Program-made: the position numbers and the translations under genes
Shown here: positions 3,984 to 13,162 of the stretch, in pieces
Layout: each line of letters begins with the position of its first letter
Numbering within the stretch: the first letter of the stretch is position 1
The notes under the pieces: model-generated
What the model saw: the letters and a program-made list of their open reading frames with translations, nothing else
Told to the model about the DNA's origin: nothing
Databases searched by the model: none
Assembly (NCBI GenBank): GCA_003694825.1
Contig: RFJS01000561.1
Coordinates: forward strand, 1-19,837
Reading direction: 5' to 3'
Length of the DNA: 19,837 nt
From: Verrucomicrobiota bacterium
GTDB taxonomy: Bacteria > Verrucomicrobiota > Verrucomicrobiia > Opitutales > Opitutaceae

Positions 3984-5342
3984 CTACGGACGCGCCGTGT
4001 CCGCCGGCCGGCGGGCCGGCCGCGCCGCCGGCGGGGACCGGTGGGTGGTCGGCGGCGGCCGGAGTGTGAGGGACGGATCGGACCGGCGGCACTTTTCGAG
4101 AAAGAGGATGCGCTCGCGCGTCGACGGGTGGGTGCCGTGCGCGGCGATGGCGTCGTTGTCCTGTGGGATGGCGAAGAGCTGGCGGTCGGAGGCGGCGGTG
4201 AGGGCTTCGATGAGGCGCGGGTATTCGGCTTCGTCCACCCGGCCGTCTGGGGTGTGGTTGTCCCACGTGCTCCAGTCGACGAGGTCGAAGGTGCGGTTCA
4301 TCAGGAACTGTTCGACGAGCGTATCGATTTTCTGAGTCTCCTCGGCCGTTTGGGACGGGGTTTCCTGTCGGCGGAGGCGGCGGGTGCGTTCGGATCGCAA
4401 CACCTGTTCGAGCGCGCGATCGATGTCGGCGGCGCCGGCGGGGCCGGCCGGCAGGGCGCGGTTGAGTTGATCGAGAAGGTCGGGGAGGTGTGCGAGGGTC
4501 AGCGTGGTGTCGGCGCGCAGGATCTGCAGGAGGCGCTTGTGCAGCAGGTATTCGAGTTCGGCGGTCTTGATGATGCCGAGCAGGCCGTTCACCAGCGGGA
4601 GAATCCCGTAGCGCCGGGCGGCATGCAGGTCGCTGAGAAACTCAAAGGTTCGTGAATGGCGTCCGAGCCATCGGCCCAGCGGCACGGAGAGAACGAAGCT
4701 CGTCGCATACCAGGAGGCGACGAGGACGCCGAAGGAGAAGGTGGATACGGTGGCGCCGAGCTGCAGCGGCAGCAGCGCGTTGAGGAGCATGAGGGCGGAG
4801 CGGTTGCGGTTGAGCGGGCGCATGTGGCCGTAGAAATGCCCCAGCTCGTGGGCGAGGATGGCTTTGATCTCGGCCGGGCGCAGGATGGTGAAGAGCCGCC
4901 GCGAGATGTAGATGGCGTTGAGGGGCTTGATGAAGTTGAACAGCAGGGAGTTGACCACGAAGGCATTGCCGTCGGCGCTTTCGGTGATGTAGATCGCGGG
5001 CAGTTCGCGCCGGCGGCGCTGGTGCGGGGCGAGCAGTTCGGCGACCATGCGCTGGATGTCGGCGGCGGTGTAGGCGCCGACCCGTTCCGGCAGCCGAAGG
5101 TGTTTCACCCGGCGCCCGGGCAGCCGCATGATGGCGACGACGCCGCCGAGGTGCGCCAGGCTCGAGAGCAGCATGAAGAGCAGTGCGAGACCGAGGAGGC
5201 CCGGCTGGCGCAGCGCCAGGAGCCGCCAGGCCATGCCGCCGATGGCCGCCCAGATGGCGGTCAGCAGCAGGTAGTCGAGGACGATCTCCCGGCGGGCCGA
5301 TCGCGCGAGGGTGTCGAGAGAGGGGATGGCCTGCAGGCTCAT
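3984..5342 (-). CDS. Integral-membrane M48-family zinc metallopeptidase
   Basis: Predicted membrane-embedded zinc endopeptidase of the M48 (HtpX/Ste24-like) superfamily; a role in membrane protein quality control is inferred. In 452 residues there are two hydrophobic helices near 24-45 and 48-72, then the conserved NAFVVNSLLF and AIYISRRL segments. The zinc motif HELGH is at 165-169, a long hydrophobic pair of helices lies at about 185-222, and the third ligand region EFLSD (Glu234, Asp238) precedes AARR. A second M48-like mark is HPSTRERI near the C-terminus (around 410-420). The last 30 residues or so are Pro/Arg/Ala-rich low complexity. The ATG lies 45 bp after the SRAP stop on the same strand with no Shine-Dalgarno sequence, so co-transcription is likely. 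A large plus-strand reading frame opposite it is a GC artefact. Confidence 0.85.
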   Translation of the reverse strand: MSLQAIPSLDTLARSARREIVLDYLLLTAIWAAIGGMAWRLLALRQPGLLGLALLFMLLSSLAHLGGVVAIMRLPGRRVKHLRLPERVGAYTAADIQRMVAELLAPHQRRRRELPAIYITESADGNAFVVNSLLFNFIKPLNAIYISRRLFTILRPAEIKAILAHELGHFYGHMRPLNRNRSALMLLNALLPLQLGATVSTFSFGVLVASWYATSFVLSVPLGRWLGRHSRTFEFLSDLHAARRYGILPLVNGLLGIIKTAELEYLLHKRLLQILRADTTLTLAHLPDLLDQLNRALPAGPAGAADIDRALEQVLRSERTRRLRRQETPSQTAEETQKIDTLVEQFLMNRTFDLVDWSTWDNHTPDGRVDEAEYPRLIEALTAASDRQLFAIPQDNDAIAAHGTHPSTRERILFLEKCRRSDPSLTLRPPPTTHRSPPAARPARRPADTARP

Positions 5343-5347
5343 GGTTG

Positions 5348-5395
5348 CCGGGAGCGGGGTCGGGTTCGCCTCCGGGAGCGGGGTGGGTTACGCCT
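5348..5395. repeat. 24-bp imperfect tandem duplication across the SRAP stop codon
   Basis: Two adjacent 24-bp units (5348-5371 and 5372-5395) agree at 21 positions and share an exact 13-bp core, CCGGGAGCGGGGT. The right-hand unit contains the SRAP stop codon (TTA at 5388-5390), and the left-hand one fills the spacer before the M48 start. It looks like a local slippage or duplication that made the intergenic spacer. Confidence 0.6.
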
Positions 5396-6140
5396 CGAAG
5401 CCCAGGTCGAGGTCGAGCTGGCCGGAGGGCGCCTGGTCGGGCGGCCTGGGCGCTTCCGGGGTGTCGGAGGGATCGAGACAGGCCGGATCGTCGTTGTGGA
5501 CGTCGTTGACGCGCGGGGAGACGGCATGGGCGGCCATGTGAGTGGCGGGGCAGGGTTTGAGCAGGCGTTCGATGGCGTCGGGGGCGGTGAGCATCGGGTT
5601 GAGCCAGTCGTCGTAGAAGTCCGGCGCAAGGATGACGGGCATGCGGTCATGGTAGGGGGCGAGGACTTCGTTGGCGGCGGTGGTGAGGATCGTGAAGGTT
5701 TCGATGGCCTGATCGGGGGGCGCTCCGGGGGGGTGCCATCGATCCCAGAGGCCGGCCATGGCGAAGAGTTCGTCGTCGCCGATGACGAAGCGAAAGGGCC
5801 GTTTGGTGCCATCGCGGCGAGCCCACTCGTAGAAGCCGTCGGCGGGCACGAGACAGCGGCGGTGCCGAAGGGCGTCGCGGAAGGCCGGCCTGGTGGCGGC
5901 GGTCTCGCTGCGCGCGTTGATGAGCAGGGGCAGGCTGGCGGTGTCGCGCGCCCAGTGCGGGATCAAACCCCAGCGCAGCAGGGCGGCGGTCCGGGTGCCG
6001 GGATGGTCGCCGGGACGGATGACGAGGCCCTCCTGAGTCGGGGCAAGGTTGTAGCGGGGCTTGAGGGGGGGCAGGTGGTCGAGGCCGAAGTGCTTTTCGA
6101 TCCGGCCGGGGTCGGTTTTCAGAGTGTAGCGGCCGCACAT
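5388..6140 (-). CDS. SRAP-domain abasic-site DNA-protein crosslink protein (YedK/HMCES-like) with a C-terminal clamp-binding-like tail
   Basis: SRAP proteins shield abasic sites in single-stranded DNA by forming a thiazolidine link through the N-terminal cysteine exposed after Met removal. The 250-residue protein begins MCGRYTL, so Cys2 is present. The other active-site residues match E. coli YedK: Asn75 in INARSET, Glu105 in GFYEW and His164 in YHDRMPVIL. Core motifs RYNLAPTQ (29-36) and LRWGLIPHWA (55-64) are intact. The core ends near residue 215. A Pro/Asp-rich linker (about 217-240) then leads to QLDLDL (241-246) and GFEA. QLDLDL fits the QLxLxL hexapeptide consensus for beta sliding-clamp binding. 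The start has no Shine-Dalgarno sequence but is fixed by Cys2. Neighbours (M48 peptidase, O-methyltransferase) show no obvious functional link, and no SOS box is recognised in the upstream 100 bp. Confidence 0.93.
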   Translation of the reverse strand: MCGRYTLKTDPGRIEKHFGLDHLPPLKPRYNLAPTQEGLVIRPGDHPGTRTAALLRWGLIPHWARDTASLPLLINARSETAATRPAFRDALRHRRCLVPADGFYEWARRDGTKRPFRFVIGDDELFAMAGLWDRWHPPGAPPDQAIETFTILTTAANEVLAPYHDRMPVILAPDFYDDWLNPMLTAPDAIERLLKPCPATHMAAHAVSPRVNDVHNDDPACLDPSDTPEAPRPPDQAPSGQLDLDLGFEA

Positions 6141-6240: not shown

Positions 6241-6900
6241 TCAGAGTTTGCGGCAGAGCGTGAGGCCGTCGCCGATGGGAAGCAGGGTGCAGGCGATGCG
6301 GGGATCGCGGGAGAGCTTCTGGTTGAGCTGGTTGAGGATGCGGGCGTTTTCCGTATCGGGATGGATGATGCGACCGGCCTGCAGCATGTTGTCGAAGGCG
6401 ATCAGGCCGCCTTCGCGCATGCGCGGGAGCAGCTTTTCGTAGTAGGCTTCGTAGGCGGGTTTGTCGGCGTCGACGAAGGCGAAGTCGAAGACGGGTTCGT
6501 CCGGCAGGGCGTCGAGCGTGTCGAGGGCCGGCCCGAGGCGCAGCTCGATGCGGTCGGCGACATCGGCGCGCTCCCAATAACGCCGGGCGATGTCGGTCCA
6601 CTCGCGGCTGATGTCGCAGCAGATGAGCCGGCCCTCGGGCGCGAGGCCCCGGGCGATGCAGATGCTGCTGTATCCGGTGAAGGTTCCGATCTCGATGGCG
6701 TGGCGCGCTCCGAGAGCGCCGACGAGGACGGTGAAGAAGGCGCCCTGTTCCGGGGGGATCTGCATGCCGCCGATGTCGCCGAGCTCGGAGGTGACGGCGG
6801 CGAGTTCGTCGAGAATGGGGTCGTCGGAGAAGCTGTGGCACCGACGGATGTAGGCGAAGTGTTCAGGCGTGAGGGCGAGAGTTTTGTGGTCGGTGGGCAT
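6241..6900 (-). CDS. Class-3 SAM-dependent O-methyltransferase (CCoAOMT/COMT family)
   Basis: Predicted cytosolic, metal-dependent catechol-type O-methyltransferase of 219 residues, a normal length for bacterial members of the Methyltransf_3 family. Seen motifs are the family segment GDIGGMQIPPEQGAFF (41-56), the SAM-binding loop AIEIGTFTGYSS (68-79), Asp96 in LICCDIS for the SAM ribose, the metal-binding FVDADKPAYEAYY (142-154) and AFDNML (168-173). The ATG at 6900 gives the usual short N-terminus. A longer in-frame opening reaching 7125 would cross the spacer and overlap the divergent TPR gene, and it has no family similarity. The substrate is unknown. It is followed by the SRAP gene after 100 bp on the same strand and diverges from the TPR gene across 196 bp that must hold both promoters. 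Confidence 0.85.
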   Translation of the reverse strand: MPTDHKTLALTPEHFAYIRRCHSFSDDPILDELAAVTSELGDIGGMQIPPEQGAFFTVLVGALGARHAIEIGTFTGYSSICIARGLAPEGRLICCDISREWTDIARRYWERADVADRIELRLGPALDTLDALPDEPVFDFAFVDADKPAYEAYYEKLLPRMREGGLIAFDNMLQAGRIIHPDTENARILNQLNQKLSRDPRIACTLLPIGDGLTLCRKL

Positions 6901-7087
6901 GGCAGTGACAGAGTATGAGGAGGCCGTTTCGGGGGATGCAAAGCGTGAAGTGCCGGGAAGGTCCGGAGGGCGTTTCGGTTTGAGAGCGGGCCTCCGGGCA
7001 GCCCGAGCTTGTCGCCGGCGCGGGAGGCGGGGGCGGGCTTCGGCGTCTCTGGATACGCGTTGAGCTTTGTCGGGAAATAGCCGGAAT

Positions 7088-7091
7088 GAGG
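7088..7091 (+). promoter_or_regulatory. Shine-Dalgarno sequence fixing the TPR gene start
   Basis: GAGG lies five bases before the ATG at 7097. It favours this start over a TTG at 7067 that would add ten residues. Confidence 0.6.
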
Positions 7092-7096
7092 TGGCA

Positions 7097-7597
7097 ATGA
7101 ATCTACGCTGGCGGTTGTCACACACGCGAGGGTATCTGGCGCTGGGGATGTTGCGGGAGGCGGAGGCCGAGCTGCGGGCGATCGACCCGGCGGATCAGGA
7201 ACGCCGGGAGGTGGCGGAGTTGTGGCTGGCTCTCTTTCACGCGCGGGGAAGCTGGAGGAAGCTTGAGGAGCTGGCGAATAAGTGGGTGCTCCGCGAGCCG
7301 GAGGAGGTGAGCTGGTGGGTGAACCTTGCCTATGCGGCGCGGCGGACTTCCTCGGTGCACCGCGCCCATTCGATTCTCGAGCAGGCGTTGATGTGGCATG
7401 CCGGGGAGGCGATCGTGCACTACAATCTCGCGTGCTATGCGGCGCAGCTCGGCTGGCTGGAGGAGGCGAGAATGCGGCTGGGGGTGGCGGTGGATCTGGA
7501 CGAGAGCTTTCGCGAGCTCGCCAGGACGGATCCCGATCTGGCGCCGCTGCGGCGCGAACATCCCGGGAAGGAGGCTGGGCCCGGGGACACGTGCTGA
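7097..7597 (+). CDS. Small TPR-repeat protein
   Basis: A 166-residue cytosolic protein without signal peptide or membrane helix, almost wholly helical. TPR-like pairs can be seen: HTRGYLALGMLREAEAELRAIDP near residues 9-33, VAELWLALFHARGSWRKLEELA near 39-60, and the best match to the TPR consensus, VHYNLACYAAQLGWLEEARMRLGVAVDLD, near 107-135. The ending DLAPLRR is common in such proteins. TPRs bind partner proteins; the partner here is unknown. A Shine-Dalgarno sequence supports the ATG. The gene stands alone between the divergent methyltransferase and the convergent metallophosphatase, with a strong hairpin after its stop. I recognise the fold but not a specific function. Confidence 0.75.
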   Translation: MNLRWRLSHTRGYLALGMLREAEAELRAIDPADQERREVAELWLALFHARGSWRKLEELANKWVLREPEEVSWWVNLAYAARRTSSVHRAHSILEQALMWHAGEAIVHYNLACYAAQLGWLEEARMRLGVAVDLDESFRELARTDPDLAPLRREHPGKEAGPGDTC

Positions 7598-7609: not shown

Positions 7610-7648
7610 GAGAGCTACCGCGCCGGCCGGGCCGGGGCGGTAGCTCTC
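7610..7648. terminator. Strong shared hairpin between convergent genes
   Basis: GAGAGCTACCGC (7610-7621) pairs perfectly with GCGGTAGCTCTC (7637-7648), a 12-bp stem with a 15-base GC-rich loop. It lies 12 bp after the TPR gene stop and, on the other strand, its outer bases overlap the stop codon of the metallophosphatase (7647-7649). Neither side has a T-tract, so it may be a weak bidirectional terminator or a 3'-end-stabilising structure. Confidence 0.55.
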
Positions 7649-10600
7649 AAGGCCGGATCTCGTAGAGTTCGATCAGGCCCACGCCGGAGGCGCCATCGGC
7701 CCCGGAGAGCTGGATGGTGTAGCTGCCGGGGGGCACGGTGATGAGCAGGGCGGCGTCGAGACTCCCGGGGGCGAGGGGAAAGGCACCGGCGTCTGTGCTG
7801 GCTGCCTCGAGTGCAGGGAGATTGGGCGCGGACTCCCAGTTGTCGTTTTCCGCGATCGTCCGATCTCCCTCGAGGACCTTGATGAGGGGATCGGAGAGCG
7901 GATGGGCGATCTTGAATGCGGTGAGGCCGGGGCCGACGCCGCGGATGAGCAGCGTGCGGGGCTCGGTGCCGGAGATGACGTAGCCGGGGATGAGAATTTC
8001 GTCGCCGGTGCCGACGTAGGCACGGGTGGAGAGGTTGAGGAGACGGATGGCGGCGCTGGTGTTGTCGACGGTGTAGAGTTCGACGAGGCCGATGCCGCTC
8101 CTGCCCTCGCGGTCCCTGAGCTGGATCGTGTAGCTGCCCTCCGGGAGGCCCGCGAGCAGGGCGCAGTCCAGACTCCCGTCCTGCAGAGGGAAGGCACCCA
8201 ACGCTTCGGCGATCGAGGCGATTTGGGGCGCGTCGGTCTGATCAGACCATCCGGCATTGGTGGCGATGGTCTGATCGGTTGCGCCATCGAAGAGGGTGAG
8301 TTCGGGGGCCGGAAGCGTGAGGGTGTCGTCTATACCGAACGCGGAGAGGCCCGGGCCGATGCCGCGGACGAGGAGCTGCAGCGTGCCGCTCCCCTTGATG
8401 ACAAAACCGTGAATGAGAATATGATCCCCCGTTCCGACGAGGCTGCGGGTGGAGAGGTTGGCGAATTGCGTGTCCGCACGGATGACGAGGGTGGCGGCGG
8501 CTGATCCGCGGTAGCGAGGATCGGTGATCGTGGCGAGCACCGGATACGTGCCGATGGCCGCGGGTGGTTCGGTGAGGCCGTCGTAGGTGATGGCGACGGG
8601 GATGCCGGCCGGATCAGTGACGGCCGTGACCGATTTCGGGGTGCCGTCGAAGGTGTGTTCGAGGTCGGTGAGGGTGATCGCCGCGGTGGCCTCGGTCACG
8701 ATGAAGCTGTGTTCGACGGGCACCGCGGGATGATGGTTGCGGTCTCCGGGCTGGGTCGCGAGGACGGTGATGGTACCGGTATTTTCGATGCGCAGACGGT
8801 CGCCCTCGATTGTCGCCGGGCCTGCGACGACGGTGAATTCGACCGGGAGTCCCGAGGAGGCGGTGGCATGGAGGGCGATTTCGTCGATGTCGGCGGAAAG
8901 GTCGGGGATCGGCGTGAAGGTGATGGTCTGCTCGGCGCGGGCGATTGTCAGAACCCCGGCGGCGTGGCCGTTGTAGTGCGGACTGGTGATGGTGGCGTTG
9001 ACGGCGTAGGTGCCGGCGTTCACCGGTGGTTGCGGCGAGTTGTCGTAGGTGATGCTGACTTCGAGGCCGGAAGGGGCGGTCGTCGCCACAACGGGTTTCG
9101 GGTTGCCGTCGAAGACGGTGTCGAGTCCGGAGAGGGTGATGGCCGCGGGGGCGGGCTGAATTTCGAAGGTGCGGATGACGGACGGGGCCGGCTCGAAGTT
9201 GTCATCACCCGTCTGGTTCGCAGCGACGGTGATTGCGCCGGTGTCCTGAAACTCGATGCGGTTTCCCGAGATCGAAGCGGGCCCGCTGATGAGGGTGAAT
9301 GTCACCGGCAAGCCGGAGGATGCGCTGGCCGAGAGTGTGACGCTTCCCTGGGCGAAGGTGGCGTCAGGAGGCTGTGGGAAGTCGATGGTCTGCGGCGACT
9401 TTGCAATGACCAGGGAGCCGGTTGCCGATCCGGCATAGTTGGCGTCGACCACCGTGGCGACGACGGCATAGGCCCCGGCATCGACGGGCGCGCTCGGGCT
9501 GCCGTTATAGGTGATGGCGACGGGGAGGCCGGCCGGATCGGTGGTGGCGGTGACGGGTTTCGGGGCGCCGTCGTAGACTGCGGAAAGCCCATCGAGCGAG
9601 ATGTCGGCGGCGGCGGGATTGATGACGAGGGTGCCCGTCGCGCTTCCGGCATAGCCCGAGGTCGTGACGGTGGCGGTCACGCTATAGGTGCCGGCATCGA
9701 TTGGCGGCGTAGAGGCGCCGTTGTAGGTGATGGTGACGTCGAGGCCGGCCGGATCGGTGGTGGCGGTGACGGGTTTGGGGGCACCGTCGTAGGTGGCGGT
9801 AAGGTCTCCCAGCGTGACCGTCGCATTGGCCGGCATGACCGTAAAGGATCGTTCGACCGACGGCGCGGGATTGTAGTTCGTGTTGCCCGGTTGGTCGGCG
9901 CGGATGGTGATGACACCGGTTCCGTTCAGTAAAAGGGTGTTGCCGGTGAGTGTTGCGGGACCGGATACGAGGCTGAAGGTGACCGGCAGGCCCGAGGTGG
10001 CCGTGGCGTGGAGCGAAAGGGAGCCAATGTCGGTCGTGACGTTGGGTGGCTGAGGGAAGTCGATGGATTGGTCGGCCGGGGAGATGGTGAAGGTGCCGGT
10101 GGCTGTGCCGGTGTAGTTGGCGGCTGTTACCGTGGCGACAACGGTATAGGATCCGGCTTCGGTGGGTGATGTGGAGGCGCCGTCGAAGGTCAATGTCGTC
10201 GGCAGTCCGGCGGGATCTGTCGAGACGGTCGGGGTGAGTGGATTCCCTGTATAGGCGGTTGTCAGGTTGGCGAGAGTTACCGTGGCTGTCGCCGGTGCGA
10301 TTGTGAGGACGCCATTGGCTGAACCCGAGTAATCAGGATCGTCGATCGTGGCCACGACGTTGTAGGATCCGGCATCGGTCGGTGGGGTCGGGGAGCCATT
10401 GTAGGTGAAATGGACATTCAATCCGGGCGGAGTCGTGTTTGCCGAGGCCGTCTTTGGGGTGCCGTCGTAGGTGTGGCTCAGCCCCTCGAGTGTGATGGGT
10501 TGCCCTTTGACGATCTGGAATTCGTCGCGGACCAGCCCCTGGTCGTCGAGAAAGCGGGCGGTGAGGGTGTTGCCCAGCACGTCGATGACCATGGAGCCGT

Positions 10601-12311
10601 TGACCGCGAGCGAGGTGTTCATGACCGGGTGGTCAAGCGTGCCGGCCGTGACGTCCCATGAGCTGCCGGCGACGGTGTAGACGGCTCCCTCATGCGCGCC
10701 GAAGCCTTTGCCATAGGGCCCGTCGCTTCCCGGTGTTCCGTCCCCGCTGTCCTTGAAGGTGCCGCTGGAAGCGAGCGTGGGCGTGGCATAGAAACCATCG
10801 ATGAGATGGGATCGCTCGTAGGCGTGACTGTGGCCGCCGAGTACGAGATCGACTCCTTCGGCTTCGAGAAGCGGCAGGAAGTTTTCCCGCATCTCGATCA
10901 TCTGGTTGTTGAGGTCGGAGTCGTGCGACGCTTTTGAATACGGAGGATGATGCCAGAAGGCGATGATCCAGGGTTGTGTCGTCTGGGCGAGGTCGTTGGC
11001 CAGCCAGGTGTACATGGCTCCCCCGACGGAGCGGTCGGCCGTCTGTGAATCGAGGCAGATGAAGTGGATGTTGGCGTGGTCGAAGGCGTAGTAGTGTTCG
11101 GTGCCGGAGGGGATGCCCCCGGCCTCGCCCTGGGTGGGGAGGGTGAAGATGGAAAAGTAGGGGAAGGAGCCATTGTAGTTGGTGCTCTGGGCGGTGTCGT
11201 GGTTGCCGAGGGCGGGCCAGAGCACGGATTTGCGCAGCATGGCTTCGAAGCTCTCGAAGACGGCGGTCTGGTATTCGGCATCGGTGCCTGTTTCGTAGGC
11301 GTTGTCGCCGAGCATGATCCAGAGGTCGGTGTGCGTGGAGCCGGTGTAGGCGTAGTAGGCATCGCGGACGTTGAGCTGATTGGCGTCGACGCGCCCGGAG
11401 TCACCGAGCACCCAGATGCGGGTGGGCGTCTCCGCGCCGGGCAGGGGTGGGGTGATAAAGAAGGTGTCACTATCGCCGCCTTCGAAGATCTCAGTGGAGC
11501 TGCCGACGGCGTAATAGTAGCGTGTGGCCGGTGTCAGGCCCGTGAGTTCGATTTCATGCTCGGTGCCGGGAAGGGATTCGATGACGGCGGAGGTGAGGTT
11601 TGTCGGGCTGTCGCCGAAGAGGACGCGGCTGTCGGTCGGTTGATCCGTCCGCCAGCGAACGATGATGCTGTTCGGTGTGCCCATCTGCAGATAGGGGCCG
11701 CGGGTGACGCGTCCCTGCCCGACGAGTTTCAGGTCGAAGCTGATGTCGCTGCTGTCGGCACTGCGCTGATGGATTTCGACGGCGATCGTGTTCGTCCCGG
11801 CGACCAGAACAGAGGGCGCGAGTGTCCAGGTCTGTTGTTGGTTGTCGGCGGAACTGCTGCTGGTGTAGGTGGTGTGGTCGGCGGTTGCCGGGAGGTTGGC
11901 TGTGCGGGCGACCTCGACGCCATTGATGTAGACGGCGGCACCATCATCGTAGGTGACAGTGAGGGCGAGGGAGACGAAGGCGCCGGGATCGGTTATCGGG
12001 AAGGTGGAGCGGAAGTAGGTGGCGGCGTTGCGTTGGTCGCCCACCGTTGCGGGGTCGGTGTCGACGAACCCGACAACCGTGGCTTCGTCTCCATCGCCGT
12101 AGCCGAGCTGTGCCGTTCCCTGGGACCAGGCCGAGTCGTCGTAGCCGGGCGCGGTCCACGCGCTTCCCGGGTCGGTGCCATTGTCAAGGTAGCGCCATGT
12201 CGCTCCTCTGGGGATGAGCGTGTGATGGGCGGCGGAGGCGGTTGCGGCGAGAGAGCAGGCCAGCAAAAGACTCGTATGCAAACGGCGGATTCCGTTTTGG
12301 CGGCGTTTCAT
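7647..12311 (-). CDS. Giant secreted purple-acid-phosphatase-like metallophosphatase with MBG/Ig stalk and duplicated C-terminal module
   Basis: Predicted exported phosphoesterase of 1554 residues. Order: signal peptide (1-28, basic start then LLLACSLAATASA); a beta-sandwich, perhaps sugar-binding (about 29-198); a PAP N-terminal FN3-like domain (202-288, GPYLQMGTPNSIIVRW); and the catalytic domain (298-500). The five PAP motifs are present: GDSG 303-306, GDNAY 335-339, GNHD 369-372, WHH 453-455 and GHSH 493-496. Metal ligands are Asp304, Asp336, Tyr339, Asn370, His455, His494 and His496. A metallophosphatase C-terminal segment (540-602) follows, then six 72-residue MBG-type repeats and three 82-residue Ig-like repeats (604-1280), then two copies of an NLSTR...VGTGD module (1283-1551). 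The start is set by the signal peptide and the ATGA overlap with the upstream TPR gene. A longer opening to 12497 lies inside that gene. Substrate is unknown. Confidence 0.88.
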   Translation of the reverse strand: MKRRQNGIRRLHTSLLLACSLAATASAAHHTLIPRGATWRYLDNGTDPGSAWTAPGYDDSAWSQGTAQLGYGDGDEATVVGFVDTDPATVGDQRNAATYFRSTFPITDPGAFVSLALTVTYDDGAAVYINGVEVARTANLPATADHTTYTSSSSADNQQQTWTLAPSVLVAGTNTIAVEIHQRSADSSDISFDLKLVGQGRVTRGPYLQMGTPNSIIVRWRTDQPTDSRVLFGDSPTNLTSAVIESLPGTEHEIELTGLTPATRYYYAVGSSTEIFEGGDSDTFFITPPLPGAETPTRIWVLGDSGRVDANQLNVRDAYYAYTGSTHTDLWIMLGDNAYETGTDAEYQTAVFESFEAMLRKSVLWPALGNHDTAQSTNYNGSFPYFSIFTLPTQGEAGGIPSGTEHYYAFDHANIHFICLDSQTADRSVGGAMYTWLANDLAQTTQPWIIAFWHHPPYSKASHDSDLNNQMIEMRENFLPLLEAEGVDLVLGGHSHAYERSHLIDGFYATPTLASSGTFKDSGDGTPGSDGPYGKGFGAHEGAVYTVAGSSWDVTAGTLDHPVMNTSLAVNGSMVIDVLGNTLTARFLDDQGLVRDEFQIVKGQPITLEGLSHTYDGTPKTASANTTPPGLNVHFTYNGSPTPPTDAGSYNVVATIDDPDYSGSANGVLTIAPATATVTLANLTTAYTGNPLTPTVSTDPAGLPTTLTFDGASTSPTEAGSYTVVATVTAANYTGTATGTFTISPADQSIDFPQPPNVTTDIGSLSLHATATSGLPVTFSLVSGPATLTGNTLLLNGTGVITIRADQPGNTNYNPAPSVERSFTVMPANATVTLGDLTATYDGAPKPVTATTDPAGLDVTITYNGASTPPIDAGTYSVTATVTTSGYAGSATGTLVINPAAADISLDGLSAVYDGAPKPVTATTDPAGLPVAITYNGSPSAPVDAGAYAVVATVVDANYAGSATGSLVIAKSPQTIDFPQPPDATFAQGSVTLSASASSGLPVTFTLISGPASISGNRIEFQDTGAITVAANQTGDDNFEPAPSVIRTFEIQPAPAAITLSGLDTVFDGNPKPVVATTAPSGLEVSITYDNSPQPPVNAGTYAVNATITSPHYNGHAAGVLTIARAEQTITFTPIPDLSADIDEIALHATASSGLPVEFTVVAGPATIEGDRLRIENTGTITVLATQPGDRNHHPAVPVEHSFIVTEATAAITLTDLEHTFDGTPKSVTAVTDPAGIPVAITYDGLTEPPAAIGTYPVLATITDPRYRGSAAATLVIRADTQFANLSTRSLVGTGDHILIHGFVIKGSGTLQLLVRGIGPGLSAFGIDDTLTLPAPELTLFDGATDQTIATNAGWSDQTDAPQIASIAEALGAFPLQDGSLDCALLAGLPEGSYTIQLRDREGRSGIGLVELYTVDNTSAAIRLLNLSTRAYVGTGDEILIPGYVISGTEPRTLLIRGVGPGLTAFKIAHPLSDPLIKVLEGDRTIAENDNWESAPNLPALEAASTDAGAFPLAPGSLDAALLITVPPGSYTIQLSGADGASGVGLIELYEIRP
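7650..8465 (-). repeat. Tandem C-terminal module, two copies offset by 141 residues
   Basis: Residues 1283-1413 and 1424-1550 of the metallophosphatase are homologous. Shared marks are NLSTRxxVGTGD, LLxRGxGPGLxAF, GAFPL, GSLDxALL, GSYTIQL and SGxGLxELY. I recall similar ends on many large exported Verrucomicrobiota (Opitutae) proteins but know no accepted function. A cell-surface retention or sorting role is an inference from its terminal position. Confidence 0.7.
8472..10502 (-). repeat. Periodic MBG and Ig-like domain array inside the metallophosphatase
   Basis: Residues 604-1280 form a beaded array in the order M-M-I-M-M-I-M-I-M. M is a 72-residue MBG-type unit (YDGxPKxVTATTDPAGLxVxI...AGTYxVxAT...YxGSAxGxLxI). 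I is an 82-residue Ig-like unit (QTIDFPQPP...ASSGLPVTF...GPAxIxGN...TGxITVxAxQxGDxNxxPAP). Boundaries: M 604-674, 675-746, 829-900, 901-972, 1055-1126, 1209-1280; I 747-828, 973-1054, 1127-1208. The third and fourth M units share a 36-bp identical stretch (9525-9560 and 9741-9776) exactly 216 bp apart, pointing to recent duplication or conversion. Confidence 0.85.
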
Positions 12312-13162
12312 GATTTTTCTGCGGTGTCGAGTCGCGCCAGGGTCGTTGCGATTGCCTCGGCGAGTTTTCGGGCCGATGGGGTTTCGCGGCGTGAGGAGGG
12401 AACTTTTTCGAAGGCGGACAACGCGGCGAGGCAGGCCGCGCGGGCTTCTTTGAAGCGGCGCATTTTGGTCAGGATGAGGCTCTTGCGCAGCAGCCACCGC
12501 TCCTTGCGGGGCGATGCGGCGAGAATGCGCTCGAGGTGCGCGAGTGCCGCATCGAAACGCCCCAGGCGTTCGGCAAGATCGAGGGTCGCGATGTCGATTG
12601 CGAAACTGCCGCTGCGTTTCCGGGTGAGTTCATCGAGTACGAGAAAGGCTTCCTCCATACGCTGGTCGGCGATGAGGGCGCGTGCACAAGCAATGGCGAC
12701 GTCGGGTTCGGCGGACGGGTGTTGCTCGAGAACGGCTTTGTAGTCTGCCGCCGCTTCCGCATGGCGCCCGAGTTGTTCGAAAGCGCGGGCGCGTTCGATG
12801 CGCGCAGCCACGGGTTCGCGTTCGAGCAGGCCGGTGAGAACCGAGATGGCGCGATCTGGGCGGCCGGACTCGGTGAGCGCGCGGGCGCGGGCGATGTCGA
12901 CGGCGGTCAGGCCCGGAGCGAGTGCCGCCGCACGGTCGTAGTCGGCCAGCGCCTTTGCCCAGTCGCGGTGAAGACGATGCAGTTCGCCGCGGCGCAGATA
13001 CAGAGCGGCTTCATTTGGCGATTTGGCGATCCGCTCATCGAGCCTGGCCAGTTCCCGAACGATGCTCTCATGCGCCCGGGCGGTCGTGCCCGCGGTGGCC
13101 TGCAGAAGCAGCATGCAGGTGAGCGCTTTCAGCAAGGCGTTGATGAATCGAAAATGAGACAT
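12308..13162 (-). CDS. Exported TPR-repeat protein coupled to the metallophosphatase
   Basis: A 284-residue protein with an N-terminal export signal (FINALLKALTCMLLLQATAG, residues 6-25) probably cleaved after the ARA at 28-30; there is no lipobox. The rest is helical with about five or six TPR units. The clearest is AALYLRRGELHRLHRDWAKALADYDRAAALAPG (about 52-84), then units near 87-118, 120-152, 154-187, 190-220 and 223-252. It would act in the periplasm or at the outer membrane as a protein-binding scaffold. Its TGA overlaps the ATG of the metallophosphatase (ATGA), so translation is probably coupled and the two products may be partners in export or assembly. The start has no Shine-Dalgarno sequence. 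Specific function is not recognised. Confidence 0.8.
   Translation of the reverse strand: MSHFRFINALLKALTCMLLLQATAGTTARAHESIVRELARLDERIAKSPNEAALYLRRGELHRLHRDWAKALADYDRAAALAPGLTAVDIARARALTESGRPDRAISVLTGLLEREPVAARIERARAFEQLGRHAEAAADYKAVLEQHPSAEPDVAIACARALIADQRMEEAFLVLDELTRKRSGSFAIDIATLDLAERLGRFDAALAHLERILAASPRKERWLLRKSLILTKMRRFKEARAACLAALSAFEKVPSSRRETPSARKLAEAIATTLARLDTAEKS

Follow-up and report, generated by a model that had tools for sequence, protein, structure and literature searches.

A conserved C-terminal hexapeptide in a bacterial SRAP protein as a putative sliding-clamp docking tag

Human HMCES is an SRAP protein with a PCNA-binding motif (PIP box). The bacterial SRAP protein considered here has the SRAP core and a proposed clamp route in common with HMCES, although the clamp and the class of peptide differ. 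E. coli YedK has the same catalytic core and residues as this protein but is without its tail: the PDB alignment stops at query residue 224, after which chain 2icu_A runs for one residue more. Because the YedK alignment ends at this point, residues 225-250 constitute an extension that is absent from YedK. The YedK residues C2, N75, E105 and H160, which correspond to C2, N75, E105 and H164 here, are residues mutated in PMC9436759.

The tail itself can be compared with the clamp motifs of other bacterial proteins. The clamp motif of E. coli DNA polymerase IV (DinB), QLVLGL, follows the same Q-L-x-L-x-L grammar as the SRAP tail and is likewise found at the C-terminal end of a protein of the damage response. 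Pol IV is, however, a polymerase whose clamp binding has been proven by structure and mutation, whereas binding by the SRAP tail is something we infer. Published accounts describe the LGL of the Pol IV motif filling the clamp pocket (PMC3716654) and a sharp shortening of clamp binding when the motif is altered (PMC5731819). PolA2 (QxxLF) and RecB (QVEMEF), recent bacterial clamp clients, were found from the same motif grammar; PolA2 is backed by AlphaFold complexes and RecB by NMR, ITC and mutants, in contrast to the SRAP tail, which is backed by sequence.

How bacterial SRAPs reach abasic sites at forks is left unexplained in the portions of the literature covered. One paper ties SRAP-like proteins to UmuC-like polymerases (PMC12926913) and another places SRAP genes near polB2 (PMC11791011). 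The word 'clamp' is absent from the main text of both the YedK mechanism paper (PMC9436759) and the 2013 SRAP paper (PMC3765255), the full record of the latter containing it once. No paper in the literature searched paired the SOS response-associated peptidase with the sliding clamp. By title or the start of the abstract, there was likewise no report of an SRAP clamp motif in that literature, which was mostly without subscription papers and preprints, and novelty is therefore unproven.

The SRAP gene and its C-terminal tail

The window, by which we mean the whole 19,837-nucleotide stretch of DNA that was analysed, contains the following features of the SRAP gene.

5388..6140, minus strand: SRAP gene, 250 aa plus stop; Pfam SRAP, 243.8 bits
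5499..6140, minus strand: SRAP core, residues 1-214, from the Pfam match and conservation among homologues
6135-6137, minus strand: Cys2 codon, SRAP core catalytic residue
5916-5918, minus strand: Asn75 codon, SRAP core catalytic residue
5826-5828, minus strand: Glu105 codon, SRAP core catalytic residue
5649-5651, minus strand: His164 codon, SRAP core catalytic residue
5421..5468, minus strand: linker, residues 225-240, where homologues are unalignable and no secondary structure is predicted; begins where the YedK alignment stops
5403..5420, minus strand: QLDLDL, residues 241-246, putative beta-clamp-binding hexapeptide
5391..5402, minus strand: GFEA, the final four residues, from the translation

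Translation of 5388-6140 on the minus strand gives a 250-aa SRAP protein with the C-terminus PSGQLDLDLGFEA. The match to PF02586 (SRAP) is full length, with residues 1-214 aligned to profile positions 1-214 at 243.8 bits against a cut-off of 27.1. The first-pass annotation had described a complete catalytic SRAP core (Cys2, Asn75, Glu105, His164) and had placed QLDLDL at residues 241-246, four residues from the C-terminus, at 5403-5420. The translation bears out the position of the hexapeptide, and all four members of the Cys/Asn/Glu/His catalytic set of the SRAP family were found and are conserved in an alignment of 34 homologues, in which N75 is invariant and C2, E105 and H164 are each at least 90% conserved. 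One 63%-identical homologue from the protein search is named as coming from an Opitutaceae bacterium, and the top genome_contigs locus for the SRAP protein is from a Verrucomicrobia MAG; the genome would accordingly belong in or close to the Opitutaceae, within the Verrucomicrobiota.

The SRAP gene is flanked on the same strand by M48-family peptidase and O-methyltransferase genes (window 3984-5342 and 6241-7125, both minus), neither of them obviously a repair gene. Elsewhere in the window, a 1616-aa ORF (7647-12497, minus) contains several repeated modules and by eye resembles a secreted phosphoesterase with repeats.

Conservation of the hexapeptide and enrichment over chance

The strict consensus for beta-clamp motifs, as given in PMC13254535, is Q-phi-x-[L/M]-[F/L] or Q-phi-x-[L/M]-x-[F/L], where phi is L, I, V or A, and QLDLDL satisfies this published form. 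A homologue search scored 8000 candidates, and the nearest 50 homologues were taken from the best 120 of these. The strict consensus is present in 34 of the nearest 50 and a relaxed form in 49; the hexapeptide form lies within the last 12 residues in 47, with linkers before it that cannot be aligned. The exceptions to the hexapeptide are P0015, which ends QLDFD, P0024, which ends ELNFGLEG with the Q replaced by E, and P0045, which is without such a tail. Across the 34 aligned close homologues L242 never varies, Q241 is at least 90% conserved, and here too the linker is unalignable. Thus the key test set out in the first-pass annotation, that the hexapeptide be conserved in close homologues with a variable linker, holds both in this alignment and in 47 of the nearest 50, where a Q-L-x-L-x-[LFI] C-terminal end is kept while the linker varies.

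The tail motif is also enriched beyond chance in SRAP proteins of the family and order. A search of 57 family/order genomes gave an SRAP match in 41, from which one incomplete sequence was dropped to leave 40 sequences including the query. Within the last 12 residues of these proteins the strict motif occurs in 16 of 40 and the relaxed motif in 31 of 40, against means of 0.39 and 2.48 and highest values of 3 and 11, respectively, in 2000 shuffles of the same residues. Internal 12-residue segments of these proteins matched the strict pattern in 0 of 718 cases and the relaxed pattern in 10 of 718; the ends of unrelated ORFs did so in 1 and 11 of 416, these background ORFs being greedy longest ORFs of which some are surely not genes. 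After thinning at 60% core identity the strict motif remained in 11 of 32 sequences (shuffle mean 0.25, highest value 4 in 5000 shuffles). If M or W is also allowed as the last residue, 34 of the 40 proteins carry a motif, 27 of them the hexapeptide and 7 the pentapeptide. Neither class is found in the other six (L007, L015, L028, L145, L149 and L150), two of which read PELPFG and PELALG, with E at the Q position.

Since the tails had been viewed before the relaxed pattern and the 12-residue span were chosen, the figures that depend on them are descriptive; the strict pattern is the published one. The relaxed pattern can also match within the core, at its end (e.g. QCVLPL, in tail-less proteins), and the Q was therefore required to lie beyond the C221 column; the chance controls (shuffles, internal segments and the ends of the 416 ORFs) were scored without this requirement. 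Its effect was to lower the relaxed count from 19 to 16 of 34 in the phylum sample and from 10 to 8 of 23 in the group around G190 described below, leaving the other groups and all strict counts unchanged.

Motif classes, distribution and the host clamp

Counts beyond the family require the Q to lie past the core, and groups are named from the record titles of their centre loci. The full set of 250 sequences derives from 273 loci, after removal of 13 ORFs short of profile column 200, 6 identical sequences, 2 that were open-ended and 2 loci without an ORF. The phylum sample consists of 34 loci, with G151, G110, G140 and weak second matches excluded, and one of the locus sets covers 30 of the 35 genomes with a match. 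The relaxed motif was found in 16 of 34 SRAPs of the phylum sample (strict 2/34), 17 of 78 in the genome_contigs set (strict 4/78), 12 of 25 in the class around Labrenzia (G189; strict 4/25), 8 of 23 in the phylum around an Acidobacteriaceae MAG (G190; strict 0/23), with the MAG itself supplying five of the eight, and 6 of 28 in the phylum around a Myxococcota MAG (G192; strict 1/28). The Bacillota sample, the phylum around Alkalihalophilus (G194), had neither class (relaxed and strict both 0/22).

Outside the family the usual form is QxxLF at the same end position (QTELF, QGELF, QGSLF), and in Labrenzia the last five residues are QLDLF. The motif is not universal among SRAPs: one of the two classes is present in 88 of the 250 and neither in 162. 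Motif presence (either class) on a FastTree of the 250 cores entails 42 changes, compared with a shuffled mean of 72.0 (43 and 72.9 when the beyond-C221 requirement is lifted): the motif is inherited within clades yet gained or lost often. Phage SRAPs were rejected as motif carriers, none of the four examined (4 of 66 matching phage records) ending in the motif.

Several features of individual loci were recorded in the course of this survey. Three of the 22 Bacillota SRAPs (L251, L252 and L253) end in LF without a glutamine, and L169, L172 and L174, which seemingly are without the last part of the core, end QPLLPF or QTLLPF, possibly a further variant of the motif. The Acidobacteriaceae MAG (G190, the genome of L087) has seven SRAP matches, some partial or with internal stops, and Labrenzia sp. 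OB1 (G189) has four. At L312:5435-7636 and L306:401-1520 the SRAP ORF adjoins an ORF whose motif resembles that of a cytosine-5 DNA methyltransferase, and a UmuC-like ORF lies nearby; in phage S1 the SRAP directly adjoins an annotated DNA methyltransferase. An SRAP ending QLDLGL (L311:2603-6192) is located near an ORF with an IMS match (Y-family, probably ImuB).

Positions that the patterns leave free behave as they do in clamp motifs such as QL[S/D]LF and the Pol IV QLVLGL. Among 35 hexapeptides (34 under the beyond-C221 requirement), 26 have S or D as the third residue and 22 have G as the fifth; 27 of them lie at the very end of the protein, as do 40 of the 54 pentapeptides (54 also under that requirement). 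QxxLF is termed the clamp-motif consensus in PMC12926913.

The DinB protein of the same genome ends QLELPLA, and the Y-family polymerases of relatives carry QLELPL, QLELDL, QLEMF or QLDLF, several of them internal and some off the strict form. An ORF-level scan of the ImuB-like region in this genome found the strict clamp motif in none of six long ORFs. At the DnaN pocket positions named in PMC3716654, compared by eye, the organism's own clamp (L031:558-1682) is identical to that of E. coli at seven of ten (R152, G174, L177, P242, V247, V360 and M362) and unlike it at three (H175, R246 and M364). On this comparison the host clamp keeps the main pocket residues. AlphaFold2 (34 sequences) places no secondary structure past residue 222 of the SRAP protein, with a mean pLDDT of 62 for residues 231-240 and 61 for residues 241-250, and the motif is predicted to sit in a flexible and accessible C-terminal region.

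Readings of the tail and a model for clamp docking

We considered what else might account for the tail. The motif is short, and its relaxed form does turn up at 11 of 416 unrelated ORF ends, but origin by chance in an Asp/Leu-rich tail is rejected on the strength of the conservation, the shuffles, the internal segments, the unrelated ORF ends themselves and the thinning at 60% identity, all of which run contrary to it. Such an origin is contradicted for the family and possible for single distant members, and we give it almost no weight for the protein at hand. The extreme C-terminus is, as a matter of general knowledge, the site of degradation tags, and the tail might be such a signal or might fold back onto the SRAP core. 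The glutamine start and the QxxLF/QLxLxL grammar would nevertheless be unexpected in a degradation tag, and both versions are opposed by the low confidence and missing secondary structure of the modelled tail and by a linker that ranges from 6 to 22 residues across the family/order set. The same model and length variation disfavour the tail as a part of the fold, and we consider this group of explanations very improbable.

A conserved peptide for another partner, such as a polymerase accessory protein or another repair hub, that merely looks like a clamp ligand is somewhat easier to entertain, since conservation shows function and not the identity of the partner; the link between SRAP-like proteins and UmuC-like polymerases in PMC12926913 also speaks for it. 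Against this, a single position that holds the hexapeptide in some lineages and QxxLF in others, together with the preferences for S/D and G, is what would be expected of a clamp ligand, and a like motif terminates the DinB of the same genome, as a clamp ligand would show. We therefore regard another partner as unlikely.

In our preferred reading the tail is very probably a docking peptide for the beta sliding clamp (DnaN), carried on a flexible tether that would place the SRAP domain at stalled primer-template junctions. The first-pass annotation had already proposed a clamp-binding peptide that recruits the SRAP protein, and this proposal gains support at the sequence level from the conservation, the QxxLF at the same end in distant SRAPs and the QLELPLA of DinB. 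Weighing on the other side are the three DnaN pocket positions that differ from E. coli, the scarcity of strict matches outside the family, the four phage SRAPs that end otherwise and the many SRAPs that carry neither class. We suggest that QLDLDL would enter the hydrophobic pocket of DnaN in the manner of the Pol IV motif QLVLGL in E. coli. With the replicase halted by an abasic site in the template, docking would keep the abasic-site-crosslinking SRAP at the primer-template junction, and the protein could then crosslink that site through Cys2 before the strand is cut or a translesion polymerase takes the pocket. An SRAP bound in this way would occupy the pocket that Pol IV needs, and would thus compete with translesion polymerases.

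Whether bacterial SRAPs recurrently dock on the clamp is in our estimation evenly balanced. On this broader proposal the hexapeptide or pentapeptide would be kept, lost or switched by lineage, abasic-site shielding would be coupled to the clamp DnaN in bacteria, as to PCNA in eukaryotes, and competition between the tail and Pol IV would divert abasic sites from mutagenic bypass. The view of the bacterial tail as a convergent counterpart of the HMCES PIP box is plausible.

The putative docking tag resembles the clamp tags of other repair proteins, which suggests delivery to replication forks. If the clamp-docking reading is true, SRAP is a clamp client and its delivery to stalled forks is explained, and a single Q-to-A change could probe the competition between shielding and translesion synthesis. 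If the link between HMCES and PCNA is right as well, bacteria and eukaryotes, two domains of life, would use different peptides to attach the same enzyme to the sliding clamp.
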